A DNA stretch of 26,663 nt from a virus. The notes under the pieces are model-generated. The model ran no database searches. It was not told the DNA's origin and worked only from the letters and a program-made list of their open reading frames with translations. Each line of letters begins with the position of its first letter. Positions within the stretch are counted from its first letter, which is position 1. Of the stretch, positions 19,759 through 26,663 are shown piece by piece. The position numbers were made by a program, and so were the translations under genes. Location of the stretch: the IMG/VR virus record IMGVR_UViG_3300023278_001895, positions 1 through 26,663 of that record; one strand, 5' to 3'.

Positions 19759-20670
19759 GTTCACTCCTTTAGAGCTATTAGAGGTAAGGGTAAGTGCAGT
19801 AGCACTTGGTTTTTTATTTTTTGCTGTCATAGCCATAGTAAGAGTTGAATCCATTCCAGAAACTATACTATCAACTAAACCTAGTGATAGGGCATCTGAA
19901 GCTATAAACTCACTTGCTCTAGTAGAAATAATATCAGCTAAAGTCAAATTAGGGCGACTTTGTAAAATGTCATTATTAAATGCGGTATCCATATTGTCAA
20001 GCAGTAAATTAAATTTAGCTATTACTTGTTCAGTAAGTGCTGTATGGCTATCCCCTAAGGCTTTCTCTGATTTACTTCTGAAAATAGTATAGGTTTTACC
20101 AGCAGCTATGTCAGCCTTACTTGTTTCAAGGTGAACCATGATTGCCCCTATGCTACCAAGTAAAGAGGTATTAGTTGCATAAATAGTTTGAGAGCTGGCT
20201 GCAATAGCATAAGCTGCACTGGTAGCCATACCATCTACATAACTAAATACATAAATTCCTTTAGTTTGTAGATTACGGATGTAGTCTGTAAGTGCAAACA
20301 AACCTGTAGCTTCACCTCCTGGAGAATCAATATAAAGCATAATGGAGGTATAGCCATTTGTTACTGCAGCATTAATATCTGATCTAATACCTTCATAAGT
20401 AGTACCTCCAGACATACCAGCACTTCCTTTAGCTGCAAGAGTATCAAAAATATTAATAACTGCAATATCTTGAGTAGTTATTTTATTAGATGACCCTGTC
20501 ATAGCCTGTTCACGCATCTCTACTTTATTTCCTGCATCGTAAAGCAAACTTGGAGCAAGACCAGCAAAGAGAGGAAGAAGTACATTTTCCGTAATAACTG
20601 ATAACTTGCTTTCAGCTATGAACAAAGGAGTATTTGTAGTACGGGAGAGTAGTCTAAGATAATTTTTCAT
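19336..20670 (-). CDS. Prohead protease, S49 / lambda C family, with C-terminal scaffold domain (444 aa)
   Basis: The catalytic domain covers about residues 65-275: IDSPGG at 114-119 forms the oxyanion region, the nucleophile is Ser151 in GMATSAAY, and the general base is most likely Lys203 in SEK, 52 residues later, the same distance I recall for lambda gpC. GSIG at 172-175 is also typical. From residue 305 the sequence becomes helical and charged (MDIEELQLALTAANASNAQLKVEALNATT is a coiled coil), the scaffold part equivalent to Nu3. Length matches lambda C (439). The protease cleaves portal and scaffold during prohead maturation. Its ATG overlaps the lysozyme stop as ATGA, with AGGAAA upstream at rather long distance. 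Confidence 0.93.
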   Translation of the reverse strand: MKNYLRLLSRTTNTPLFIAESKLSVITENVLLPLFAGLAPSLLYDAGNKVEMREQAMTGSSNKITTQDIAVINIFDTLAAKGSAGMSGGTTYEGIRSDINAAVTNGYTSIMLYIDSPGGEATGLFALTDYIRNLQTKGIYVFSYVDGMATSAAYAIAASSQTIYATNTSLLGSIGAIMVHLETSKADIAAGKTYTIFRSKSEKALGDSHTALTEQVIAKFNLLLDNMDTAFNNDILQSRPNLTLADIISTRASEFIASDALSLGLVDSIVSGMDSTLTMAMTAKNKKPSATALTLTSNSSKGVNMDIEELQLALTAANASNAQLKVEALNATTLALTAERERVSAILTASTTLKTSMDTVVRHIHKGYSVEDSLEIQTDIATGKGTITALNTENNSSEIDPDLDAKLSAQSDSEAAASVVRLSALRAGARAAGLKFKTTLNAGV

Positions 20671-21134
20671 TTTGCATATTTTCCTGTTTTCATTTGAGTA
20701 GCTAGAATTACTGCTCTGTTGCCTACCTGTTTAGCCCAATCTGAATTAAGCATTTCAACTCCAGCAGCAGCATAGTCTTCATTTGCAATAAAAGTTAAAG
20801 TCTTTTTAAATTTCTTTAGTTTAACGATACCTAAATTATAGTGCATGTTTATCAATGTATCTTTTCTAATTCTATCCACGGAGGGGAACCAACTAAAGGC
20901 TTTAATTAATTCAGCTTCAGAAATATCTACAAGCTTCCTTAGTAACCTTAATGCTGTATCTTTTTCCATTCCTGTAGCATGAATAGCTGCTAATTCTTCC
21001 TTAGACAAATTAAAAGTGTTTGCTTCAAGATTATACCCATACCCGCAAGTAAGCACTTGTTTTGTATCTCTATAGGGCATACGTCTATAGCCTTCATGTG
21101 TGCAAAGTTGTTTCTCTAATTCTTTAGTAATCAT
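20667..21134 (-). CDS. T4-type lysozyme (glycoside hydrolase family 24) inside the head operon (155 aa)
   Basis: The N-terminus aligns with T4 lysozyme: Glu14 in THEGYRR, Asp23 in YRDTKQV and Thr29 in LTCGYGY have the same spacing as the T4 triad Glu11, Asp20 and Thr26, followed by the GYGYNL turn. Later helices (LSKEELAAIHATGMEKDTA, RLLRKLVDISEAEL, RKDTLINMHYNLGIVKLKKFKKTL) match the C-lobe. It cuts the sugar chain of peptidoglycan. No signal peptide or N-terminal anchor is seen, so export would need a holin or packaging in the virion. It is unusual that it lies between portal and protease genes instead of in a lysis cassette. AAGGAG precedes the ATG; the stop overlaps the protease start. 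Confidence 0.9.
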   Translation of the reverse strand: MITKELEKQLCTHEGYRRMPYRDTKQVLTCGYGYNLEANTFNLSKEELAAIHATGMEKDTALRLLRKLVDISEAELIKAFSWFPSVDRIRKDTLINMHYNLGIVKLKKFKKTLTFIANEDYAAAGVEMLNSDWAKQVGNRAVILATQMKTGKYAK

Positions 21135-23002: not shown

Positions 23003-24985
23003 TTAGGTACTGGTACTGGTACTGGTACTGGTACTGGTACTGGTACTGGTACTGGTGCTGGAAGATAACAGATTTTGTTCTTCCTGTAACCATTTTGCTT
23101 CAGTCCAGTTACGCAGTTGTATAGCATAGCTTGCATGTAATGCAAGTTTTTCACAGTCTATTGCTTCTTTACGTTTTCCAGGCTTTAGTTCATAGCGAGT
23201 AACTGCAGTATTTACAGAAAGCCTTTTTACACAAGATAGCATTTGCTCTTCATACTGTCCATAGCTTGTTTCATTATGATAATACCTATCTCTAGTTCCT
23301 GTAAGAGTAATCCTACGCAAGATTTCCTCGTGAGCTTTATGCGCTCCCATAAGAAATAGGGCTACACCCATTCTTTCTGCCATAGTTTTTCTTTCTTGCT
23401 TTTGAGAAACTAATTCCTGAGTTCCCGGTTCAGTAAATATCTCTGCATTATAGTTTGTATCCGTACTACCTTTAGTTGCAAAAATAAAGTTGTGTACTTC
23501 TTCTAAACTTTTTACCCAGGAGTAGACCAACTCACTTGTCTTACCATCTGAACAATCTATACTTGCAGCAGAAATAGGAAGCATAATTGATTTACCATTT
23601 GCACGTTTAGCTTCATGGGCTACAGCACCTAGAGCTAGCTCTGTTAGTTCTACCCAAACTGGATCTTCTGGGTCAAGTACATTTCCAAAGATTTCTTTCC
23701 AAGATACTAACCAAGAACAATTATTCCTGCCCCATGCACGAATAATTATAGCAAAACGATTATGCTGAACATCTATTCCCATAGTAAGGACACTTCCTCC
23801 CATAGGAATAAGGTTCTCAGTATAATTTAACCTGCGCTTTTTCATTTCTTCTATATCTATACCAGTGAGCTTAGTTTCATAAGCCTTCCCTATAGAATTG
23901 TTAGTAAATGATTTCATCAAGCCTTCTTCACCTTTGCTCAATGCTAATTCTGCTTTAACTTTCTTCTTCATGAGTTCTACATGTGTACTTGCAGAGAAAC
24001 TACTCATAAGTTCATTAAAAGTAAAACCATAAATATCTATTTCTGCAGGGCGTAATGCAACCCAGCCAAGACTGTTGAAATTTAATGCTTCTATTACGGC
24101 TTTTTTTCTATCACTGTCATCCCATACAGCTTTACAAGAAATACATTCATAATATGCAGTTGCAGGATTTAACTTACCATAAATTTCATGTATGTACCTG
24201 TCTTGGTATTGGTCACATTTCAGTTGATTAAAGTTAAATTCCTGCAATGTTCCACAACATCTGCAAGGAACTTGGAATACCATTTGATTACTTTGATTGT
24301 AGGCATTTGCAACTCTGGAAAATCCTGCATCAGTGGGAGTACCTCCAAAAATAAGTTTTCTTTCTGCAAAAGTCTTCTGCCGTTGCATAAGAATATCCAA
24401 GGCATCACCTTGATTACCTACGTCATCCTGCAAACCGTCTGGTTCTTCCACTAGAATAATTGGAACTGAGGAACTCTTAAGGTCTTCTGTACTTCGTGCA
24501 GTAACTAAAGACAGCCAACCACCTTTAAATTTAAAAAATTTATAACTGCTTCTATCTGGGTTACCAATATCTGCCAATAGAATTGGATTGCTCCGAATCA
24601 ATGGTTTGATTTTTTCTCTTGAATACTTTTTTGCAGATTCCATCCGTGGAAAAGCTATAATCATATTTTGAGGGTCAATGTGCATCCGTTTAGATAGATA
24701 GCTATTTGTAGTTTCACTCCAAGAAACTTGTGCAGATTTCTGAGCAACAATAACTTTTATATCTACATCATCCATACATTCCATAGGATACAACATAAAT
24801 GGAGTTTCCATACAATCCATTTTACCTGGTTTAGCAGTTACATCACTTCCTAACCAACGGTAGGTTTCAGCATATTCTTTAGTAGAAAGACGTTCTGGCT
24901 TTTTAAAGAATTGCAGCATTTGTCCTAAAAATAACCTTTCAGTAATCCGTTCAACAGGAGCAAAAGCTAGGTTAGAGGAGGTCAT
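23003..24985 (-). CDS. terL: Terminase large subunit, lambda gpA family (660 aa)
   Basis: Residues 83-90 KSAQVSWS align with the lambda Walker A (KSARVGYS), with Ser in place of the usual Gly; IILVEEPD at about 176-183 is the Walker B region. A zinc-ribbon-like set of cysteines is at 241, 243, 244, 281 and 284. The nuclease domain starts near 400 with TMGIDVQ, Asp405 being a metal ligand candidate (lambda Asp401). The protein packages DNA into the prohead and cuts it at cos or headful sites. Lambda A has 641 residues. The start at 24985 is used because upstream in-frame codons lie inside the small subunit gene in an unlikely hydrophobic extension; AGGAG is close upstream. The C-terminus is a Ser-Thr repeat tail. 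Confidence 0.95.
   Translation of the reverse strand: MTSSNLAFAPVERITERLFLGQMLQFFKKPERLSTKEYAETYRWLGSDVTAKPGKMDCMETPFMLYPMECMDDVDIKVIVAQKSAQVSWSETTNSYLSKRMHIDPQNMIIAFPRMESAKKYSREKIKPLIRSNPILLADIGNPDRSSYKFFKFKGGWLSLVTARSTEDLKSSSVPIILVEEPDGLQDDVGNQGDALDILMQRQKTFAERKLIFGGTPTDAGFSRVANAYNQSNQMVFQVPCRCCGTLQEFNFNQLKCDQYQDRYIHEIYGKLNPATAYYECISCKAVWDDSDRKKAVIEALNFNSLGWVALRPAEIDIYGFTFNELMSSFSASTHVELMKKKVKAELALSKGEEGLMKSFTNNSIGKAYETKLTGIDIEEMKKRRLNYTENLIPMGGSVLTMGIDVQHNRFAIIIRAWGRNNCSWLVSWKEIFGNVLDPEDPVWVELTELALGAVAHEAKRANGKSIMLPISAASIDCSDGKTSELVYSWVKSLEEVHNFIFATKGSTDTNYNAEIFTEPGTQELVSQKQERKTMAERMGVALFLMGAHKAHEEILRRITLTGTRDRYYHNETSYGQYEEQMLSCVKRLSVNTAVTRYELKPGKRKEAIDCEKLALHASYAIQLRNWTEAKWLQEEQNLLSSSTSTSTSTSTSTSTSTST
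23006..23059 (-). repeat. Hexanucleotide microsatellite at the 3' end of the large terminase gene
   Basis: On the plus strand GGTACT is repeated eight times without change (23006-23053), followed by one variant GGTGCT. On the coding strand this gives a terminal tail of nine Ser-Thr pairs immediately before the stop. Slippage would change tail length in pairs of residues and keep the frame. Confidence 0.97.
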
Positions 24986-25565
24986 CATACTCCTGCAGAA
25001 CGGGTGAAACATAGTCATCAAAGGTACTAAGAGGTATATCTTCTTCCTCAATATCATCTATAACTTCCATCTTCTCTGAGATAAAGTTATCTAAATCTGT
25101 CTGAGCAGTTACTTCCATTCTTTCACCAAGCCTATACCATTCTTCTAAACACCTGTCTATAGTTTCTTGAGTTTCTGGATGCTTACGAGAAATACTAATA
25201 AGTTGTGTACGAATCTGTAAGAATACTGGCTCACAAACTTCTGCAAACTCTTTAATCCCAATTAATTCTTTTTTCTTTTCTTTGTTGTTTAACCACTCGT
25301 TCTCAGTTTTAGCTCTATCTAATTCTATCTTCTGCAATAGTGCTTTCTCTGATACATTACTTACTTTACTTGCAGATTTACCTTTCCAAAAATTAATATA
25401 ATGAATTATGCACTCACGGTAGCTTGCGCTAGGATTTGGAGGTAGTTTTCCATCTTGCCTACCTTGATAGGTCATTGAAACATTAATACCAAGCATAGAA
25501 GCTAATATAGCTGGCGTAGCTTTAACATTAATGTCTATAATTCCCTGATTATTTTTATCTATCAT
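24972..25565 (-). CDS. terS: Terminase small subunit, Nu1-like (197 aa)
   Basis: Residues about 16-45 (TPAILASMLGINVSMTYQGRQDGKLP) form the winged helix-turn-helix that binds cos DNA in lambda Nu1, followed by YRECIIHYINFW. The middle is a charged coiled coil (EKALLQKIELDRAKTENEWLNNKEKKKELI) for oligomer formation, and the end is acidic (MEVIDDIEEEDIPL...QEYDDLL), the part that in lambda contacts gpA. The start at 25565 is the first ATG (a TTG at 25631 lies inside the promoter region); no Shine-Dalgarno is seen, so initiation may be weak. It overlaps the large subunit by 14 bases and is the first gene of the late operon. Confidence 0.88.
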   Translation of the reverse strand: MIDKNNQGIIDINVKATPAILASMLGINVSMTYQGRQDGKLPPNPSASYRECIIHYINFWKGKSASKVSNVSEKALLQKIELDRAKTENEWLNNKEKKKELIGIKEFAEVCEPVFLQIRTQLISISRKHPETQETIDRCLEEWYRLGERMEVTAQTDLDNFISEKMEVIDDIEEEDIPLSTFDDYVSPVLQEYDDLL

Positions 25566-25599
25566 AAAAGCTAATTGTTTGATCAAATGTAATTTAGTA

Positions 25600-25628
25600 T
25601 TGACTATAAATGACTTTACGGTAATAAT
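25600..25628 (+). promoter_or_regulatory. Promoter for the plus-strand genes
   Basis: On the plus strand TTGACT (25600-25605), 17 bases, then AATAAT (25623-25628): five of six matches to each sigma70 box, ideal spacing. Start site would be near 25636, about 32 bases before the ATG at 25668. It faces the minus-strand promoter; both boxes overlap those of the other strand. An inverted repeat TTGAYTAT (25600-25607 and 25624-25631) underlies both. Confidence 0.7.
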
Positions 25629-25631
25629 CAA
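25603..25631 (-). promoter_or_regulatory. Promoter for the minus-strand late operon
   Basis: On the minus strand TTGATT (25631-25626), 17 bases, then TATAGT (25608-25603). This is four of six and five of six matches to the sigma70 boxes with ideal spacing. Transcription would start near 25596, about 30 bases before the small terminase ATG. It almost wholly overlaps the plus-strand promoter. No other convincing promoter was seen for this long operon. Confidence 0.7.
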
Positions 25632-25667
25632 GCAAACATAAAATTAACCGTATATAAAAGAGTCCTT

Positions 25668-25907
25668 ATGCCTGATGAATCTTGCAGAATAGCTAAATTA
25701 GAAGCGTATCATGCGTATCATGCGGAACATTTCCGGCAGTTTGAAGAACATATTAAAAGAGAGGAAAGAAATTTTGATGCACTATTTACAAGTATTAAGG
25801 ACTTAGAGATTAGTATAAATGGTCAAAAAAGTTTTATAGGGGGAGTAGTATTTGTATTAAGTGGAGTTGCTGCTGCTGCAACAATACTTATAAACAAATA
25901 TCTTTAA
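25668..25907 (+). CDS. Small coiled-coil protein with C-terminal membrane anchor, XhlA/holin-like (79 aa)
   Basis: Residues about 7-50 are charged and helical (KLEAYHAYHAEHFRQFEEH, then KREERNFDALFTSIKDLE), a probable coiled coil. Residues about 55-75 (SFIGGVVFVLSGVAAAATILI) form one membrane segment, ending NKYL. This layout, soluble coiled coil plus C-terminal membrane helix in about 80 residues, is that of XhlA-type and other small phage lysis proteins, and of some spanin-like or superinfection proteins. I cannot choose among these. It is transcribed away from the late operon under its own promoter-like sequence. A nine-base repeat (GCGTATCAT twice) encodes AYHAYH. The ribosome site is weak (AAGAG at fair distance). 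Confidence 0.6.
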   Translation: MPDESCRIAKLEAYHAYHAEHFRQFEEHIKREERNFDALFTSIKDLEISINGQKSFIGGVVFVLSGVAAAATILINKYL

Positions 25908-25990: not shown

Positions 25991-26663
25991 ATGACTGAAT
26001 TTAAGGATAGTGTAGAGGATGAAACAAATACTCTAGGTACTGGACCTGTAGTTGTTATAGGAGTATTCCTTGCTGGGCGTAGAACTATAGCTTCTGCACA
26101 TACTTCTGGTGCTACAGTATCCTACCGTATCAATAATTCTAATGATACAGAATGGGAAGTTGGTAAAGGAATATGGACAGCAGCAGGCTCAACCCTAACT
26201 AGAGTTACAGTATCAGCTTCTAGTAATTCAAATTTGTTAGTTAATTTCTCTGCTGGAATAAAGAGAATTATAACTACATTTATTGCTTATGATGCAGTAG
26301 CCCAAAACATATATGTAAATACTTTTATTAGTATTGTGTGGGGTACTCCCTCCGTAGAATCTTCTAATAAGATTGAGATACTGGCGACTTGCCTTAATAT
26401 TGACAATGAAGTTTTTGTTAGTGGGCAGGTTGCCGTTGAGTTAAGGGTGTCTGACTCGGCAGGTTCAAATGAACCTAGCGACACCGCAGTTATACAAGCT
26501 GCAACAGCACCAGTAGGAACTATGCTTTCTGGTACTGGAACGGCTACATCGGTGTTTAAAACAAATAATGCAGGGCAGTTTAAAATAGCCGTTTATGATG
26601 TAGCGGTAGGTAGCAGGTTTGTTTGGCTAAAAGCGGGTGGGCACTCGCAACTTTTCTGCCGTG
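25991..26663 (+). CDS. Partial phage fibre-like virion gene (first 224 codons, runs off the right edge)
   Basis: From the ATG at 25991 one frame is open to the window end. The first ~95 residues (MTEFKDSVEDET, then TGP..IGVFLAGRRTIAS, EWEVGKGIWTAAGSTLTRVTV and ASSNSNLLVNFSAG) follow a module that I recognise from the N-terminus of many phage virion and tail fibre proteins (KDRV-ET--TTGTG...WEVG-GT...L-R--V--SSN-----FSAG). The last ~50 residues visible (APVGTMLSGTGTATSVFKT, AGQFKIAVYDVAVGSRFVWLKAGG) match another common fibre beta module. Base composition becomes GC-richer from about 26340, suggesting a module boundary. It is transcribed opposite to the late operon. No Shine-Dalgarno is obvious. 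Confidence 0.75.
   Translation, partial: MTEFKDSVEDETNTLGTGPVVVIGVFLAGRRTIASAHTSGATVSYRINNSNDTEWEVGKGIWTAAGSTLTRVTVSASSNSNLLVNFSAGIKRIITTFIAYDAVAQNIYVNTFISIVWGTPSVESSNKIEILATCLNIDNEVFVSGQVAVELRVSDSAGSNEPSDTAVIQAATAPVGTMLSGTGTATSVFKTNNAGQFKIAVYDVAVGSRFVWLKAGGHSQLFCR

Follow-up and report, generated by a model that had tools for sequence, protein, structure and literature searches.

Can a stretch of 32 bases between two phage genes carry two promoters on the same bases, and what would such an arrangement do? The question was raised by an uncultured phage, for which positions 1-26,663 of the IMG/VR record IMGVR_UViG_3300023278_001895 were analyzed (26.7 kb, G+C = 35%; this whole stretch is referred to as the window). 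An earlier note on this DNA had placed two overlapping opposite promoters at 25600-25631, serving the terminase operon on one side and the membrane-protein/fibre genes on the other, and the element was indeed found in the gap between both units. The features concerned are listed in Table 1. The element is probably real, i.e., a fully overlapping divergent σ70-type promoter pair kept under selection, since four related phages share this arrangement.

Table 1. Coordinates of the promoter element, its predicted boxes and the surrounding genes in the window.
Feature	Position	Strand	Basis and remarks
Large terminase subunit (TerL, GpA type)	23003..25057	-	PF05876 (E 4e-54); PF20454 (E 6e-50); phrog_15
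Small terminase subunit (TerS), first gene of leftward promoter	24972..25565	-	phrog_57 (E 2.6e-4); 52-62% identical to relatives
Non-coding gap, 102 bp, between divergent small terminase gene (-) and small membrane-protein gene (+)	25566..25667		ORF list
Fully overlapping divergent promoter element (putative)	25600..25631		sequence TTGACTATAAATGACTTTACGGTAATAATCAA; terminase strand TTGATTAT-N15-TATAGTCAA
-35 TTGACT, rightward promoter	25600..25605	+	promoter scan; invariant in 5/5 phages; 25603-25605 common to leftward -10
-10 AATAAT, rightward promoter	25623..25628	+	promoter scan; NATAAT in relatives
-35 TTGATT, leftward (terminase) promoter	25626..25631	-	promoter scan; invariant in 5/5 phages; L003 also has TTGATT
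-10 TATAGT, leftward promoter	25603..25608	-	promoter scan; TAAAGT in four relatives
79-AA protein with C-terminal membrane segment, holin-like; first gene of rightward promoter	25668..25907	+	28-33% identical to L140, L144 and L150 proteins
Open-ended fibre-like ORF, second gene of rightward unit	25991..26662	+	ORF list

The leftward block contains packaging, head and tail genes from TerS (25565) to the window end, and the rightward genes begin at 25668. For TerS, the start codon ATG at 25565 is supported by aligning the protein with its relatives; its frame is open back to a TTG at 25631, and this extension is interrupted by stops in the relatives L002, L012 and L013. Judging from the alignment, the true start of TerL probably lies near 24985. 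On the rightward side, a search with the 79-AA protein returned no relatives, which appeared only beside terminase matches. Three of the four members of its family matched phrog_689 ‘holin’ (best E 2.3e-4), and the window protein itself gave no match to this family. ORF 25991..26662, which we tentatively take to be fibre-like, as the earlier note did, had no Pfam match and a weak PHROG match. Among relatives, the promoter stays and the first rightward gene varies: L012 and L013 have small membrane proteins there, and in L134 the gene matches a virion protein. Two further observations concern the leftward block. The portal and S49 peptidase genes flank a lysozyme gene (20667-21134), and L002 has no ORF at this place. 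The 6-base repeat GGTACT occurs nine times at the 3’ end of the TerL gene (window 23006-23061) and encodes a Ser-Thr run which is absent from the compared relatives.

The boxes described in the earlier note were confirmed on both strands, with spacers of 17 bases. The promoter scan gave a consensus score of 10/12 for the rightward promoter (TTGACT-17-AATAAT, 25600-25628) and of 9/12 for the leftward promoter (TTGATT-17-TATAGT, 25631-25603), whereby the scores refer to the σ70 consensus, which is assumed to apply in the host. A second plus-strand candidate in the window (25615-25644) also scored 9/12. Each -35 box overlies the -10 box of the other promoter with an offset of 3 bp. The pair had been termed ‘face-to-face’, which is the wrong term: the rightward -10 is at the right end of the element and the leftward -10 at its left end, so transcripts would start outside the element, at about 25635 (+) and 25596 (-), and run apart. 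Hence, the promoters are divergent. The leaders from the predicted starts to each gene would comprise about 30 bases. The notion that polymerase fits in only one orientation at a time holds by geometry.

AT-rich DNA is full of promoter-like matches and a single genome therefore says little. On a given strand, such a match occurred in 37-44% of the shuffles of the 102-bp gap, and a 6.7-kb region contained 13 matches versus 21.4 ± 4.4 in its shuffles, i.e., fewer than shuffled sequence. Nearly co-centred opposite pairs with a score of ≥ 19/24 were found in 0.2% of the gap shuffles; shuffling the whole window gave such a pair in 3 of 30 runs. As seen in one genome, the promoter pair is uncommon, not overwhelming, and suggestive only. 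Conservation in relatives makes the element credible and is decisive over single-genome statistics.

Relatives were gathered by terminase protein similarity searches. Upstream of TerS, the pattern TTGATTAT-N15-TAWAGTCAA was present in four of them with exact geometry: L002 (4132), L012 (129), L013 (2440) and L134 (1202). In the first three of these, the region reads TTGATTAT-N15-TAAAGTCAA. All five phages, the window and these four relatives, carry recognizable -35 and -10 boxes on both strands, overlying the same bases and spaced within the range of 16-18 bp. The alignment of the gap among relatives, proposed in the earlier note as a check, revealed that the boxes of both promoters are conserved: among the five phages, 16 of 17 box positions show no variation, compared to 0 of 15 spacer positions. 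At four-fold degenerate sites of TerS, pairwise identity was only 31-52% (L003 was included and L134 left out of this comparison). Since silent sites are well diverged and the boxes almost identical, the boxes appear to be held by selection. L134 served as a prospective test. The pattern was fixed before L134 was included, this phage was found through its large terminase, and the same pattern was detected at 1202 despite an HNH-like ORF between the element and the intact TerS copy. Exact copies of the element number one per phage record and none are clustered. The genes on either side of the element diverge in the window, L012, L013 and L134, and the opposite neighbour differs. In L002, a short co-directed ORF of 65 AA intervenes upstream of TerS, so that the rightward promoter is without a gene directly in front. 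L003 keeps a terminase promoter, TTGATT-N17-TATGAT, with rearranged rightward boxes. Relatives at 38-55% TerL identity are without the element; the divergent gene order is mostly kept in them, the overlap is not. As judged from these sequences, promoter overlap is a trait of one clade.

HNH-like ORFs were also noticed in their own right. In L134 (1264-1935), a TerS 5’ end, which reads MAQFIDINSKPSPAVLSSLLGISVQM, directly follows the promoter element, then comes the HNH-like ORF stretch, and the intact gene, at 1929, is entered from another TerS start that has diverged from the first. A mobile endonuclease gene seems to have been inserted here, with the TerS start being re-created. An Rfam search of the window and L134 returned no family, and no intron match in L134. 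A 170-AA HNH-like ORF is situated between the small and large terminase genes in L143 (3463-3975), L149 (3463-3975) and L151 (3457-3969) and is absent there in other relatives.

Conservation of the 32 bases might be due to one functional promoter only, the opposite one being a by-product of box symmetry or spurious transcription. Boxes of the -10 and -35 type have a pseudo-symmetry, and divergent transcription without evident need is seen at many bacterial promoters (PMC10268837). The absence of a gene directly in front of the rightward promoter in L002 also fits this explanation, as does the score of the four relatives on the terminase side, which is only 8/12 (-10 TAAAGT; rightward 10/12). 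Against it, the private positions of either promoter are about equally invariant, including element positions 7, 8 and 30-32, which are needed only by the rightward promoter and are all invariant in the five phages. The two consensus sequences conflict at four positions, of which three favour the rightward promoter (5, 6 and 28) and one the terminase promoter, identically in five phages. The pair score is 19 in the window and 18 in the four relatives, with a maximum of 20 of 24 at offset 3. Such invariance and conflict resolution is the pattern expected from selection on both promoters. Furthermore, the flanking genes diverge, hence transcription of both units has to begin within or close to the gap, and a TTGACT -35 toward the opposite unit is still found in L003 and in several of the 53-55% relatives. 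A single functional promoter is therefore decidedly unlikely. The terminase-side promoter is weak by consensus and may, thus, need an activator.

Beyond the clade, an exact search of viral contigs with the 32 bases returned no match. A scan of viral contigs with the 17-base pattern yielded at least 119 stretches, and among the 80 loci tested from the pattern matches listed, a related terminase was present only on the already known L013 contig. Most other listed matches are thus presumably chance or unrelated. In 1.05 Mb of pattern-match contigs with the seed sites masked, pairs at offset +3 were not enriched (0 seen versus 0.5 expected), so the architecture does not seem to be generally common in phage DNA. 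A further viral scan gave only known loci plus one contig which ends before the gap. Separately, the same box pattern (TTGATTATTACCGCAAGTGATTTTATAGTCAA) was observed at L089:3317-3348 and also in L074, L090 and L091, 47 bases upstream of a CI-repressor-like gene; here, too, two promoters may overlap, in what would be a lambda-like control region.

The earlier note had further recognized an inverted repeat, TTGAYTAT, at the ends of the element with 16-base spacing. The arms TTGACTAT (25600-25607) and ATAATCAA (25624-25631) are 16 bases apart and match in 7 of 8 bases, as described. The repeat had been proposed to bind a dimeric regulator. Under this explanation, it would be the operator of a dimeric regulator from phage or host, and the likeness to promoters would be secondary. 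Two conserved half-sites which flank an unconserved spacer would also suit a protein binding both ends. Overlaying two such promoters at a 3-bp offset, however, forces the inverted repeat TTGANTAT in any case. Half-site symmetry was not conserved in the relatives but decreased from 7/8 in the window to only 6/8 in L002, L012, L013 and L134, and all five phages have the same TTGATT/TTGACT asymmetry. As the arms drop to 6/8 while the boxes hold, a symmetric dimer operator is the less likely cause. In addition, the half-sites are 24 bp apart centre to centre, which is no whole number of helical turns, the boxes and their spacing obey the 17-bp σ70 rule on both strands, and there is one copy per record without clustering. 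We consider the operator explanation highly improbable. Some regulator may nonetheless act on the element.

The element might also belong to a packaging (cos/pac) site, given its position beside the small terminase gene. Phages of the lambda type have their cos immediately upstream of this gene, and TerL of the window is of the GpA type. However, no cos/pac repeats (repeated terminase-binding motifs) and no operator-type repeat array were seen in the 102-bp gap, and the conserved bases coincide with promoter boxes at the right spacing on both strands. We regard a packaging site as extremely improbable.

For the overlapping promoter pair, we infer from the sequence that both promoters are active, that they start transcription where predicted using a host sigma factor, and that simple steric competition occurs between them. 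In one orientation, RNA polymerase would start at about 25596 and read the terminase-head-tail operon leftward, and in the opposite orientation it would start at about 25635 and read the holin-like and fibre-like genes rightward. The earlier note had proposed a mutually exclusive choice between the two sets of genes, which would amount to a switch from one infection programme to another. On 32 bp, one polymerase unavoidably keeps a second one out, and the overlapping divergent promoters of pLS20 are one layer of a real switch (PMC4207663). However, the late functions of both units, virion or lysis, are required within a single infection, which makes an either-or decision between them unlikely. 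Lysis genes are even split, with the lysozyme on the terminase side and the holin-like protein on the other, and no regulator gene adjoins the element, in contrast to pLS20. Moreover, bidirectional promoters of E. coli showed little competition at basal activity, and occlusion became relevant only upon strong activation of one direction (PMC12825309). A decision switch is thus very unlikely, and the steric competition would rather tune the ratio of the two transcripts. More tentatively, the overlap could be a selected device for ratio setting or timing, in which polymerase on one side throttles the other, so that activating one side would automatically delay or restrict the other with no dedicated repressor involved; we rate this as a rather unlikely possibility.

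In this group of uncultured phages, transcription of both late units likely starts from the element. It constitutes a conserved natural case, in which an exact promoter overlap is kept across phages with widely diverged silent sites, and would therefore be a clean test object for selection on promoter occlusion itself, a question left open by recent bidirectional-promoter work.

Several known systems resemble the element in part. The phage lambda promoters PR/PRM are likewise divergent and in one short intergenic region; their core boxes are unshared, and control is exerted through CI and Cro operators (PMC4207663). In both respects they differ from the element described here. Grainger-type bidirectional promoters also occupy one short stretch, bind polymerase in either orientation and produce divergent RNAs, with simultaneous binding excluded (PMC12825309, PMC10268837). 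They share a -10 element and their divergent starts are 7-25 bp, commonly 18 bp, apart (PMC10268837), whereas the geometry of the phage element, with -10 boxes at opposite ends and predicted starts about 39 bp apart, falls outside this type. The closest described case is Pr/Pc of the Bacillus subtilis plasmid pLS20 (PMC4207663). There, too, the -10 and -35 boxes overlie the -35 and -10 boxes of the other promoter, the spacers are 17 bp long, and the pair lies between divergent genes of a mobile element; the phages with divergent neighbours (window, L012, L013 and L134) have units of this kind. The boxes of pLS20 are said to correspond exactly (PMC4207663), in contrast to the 3-bp offset in the phages. 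The weak Pr depends on RcoLS20, which has sites overlapping and flanking the promoters, and a DNA loop is part of the system (PMC4207663). The phage element differs from a switch of the pLS20 type, as its neighbours are terminase and holin-like genes without an adjoining regulator gene, no operator array was found in the gap, and each record has a single element. It would serve packaging/virion and lysis/fibre genes of a phage, in contrast to pLS20. The architecture is, thus, already known from pLS20 Pr/Pc and Grainger-type promoters, and what is new is this example, in an unusual place and unusually well conserved.
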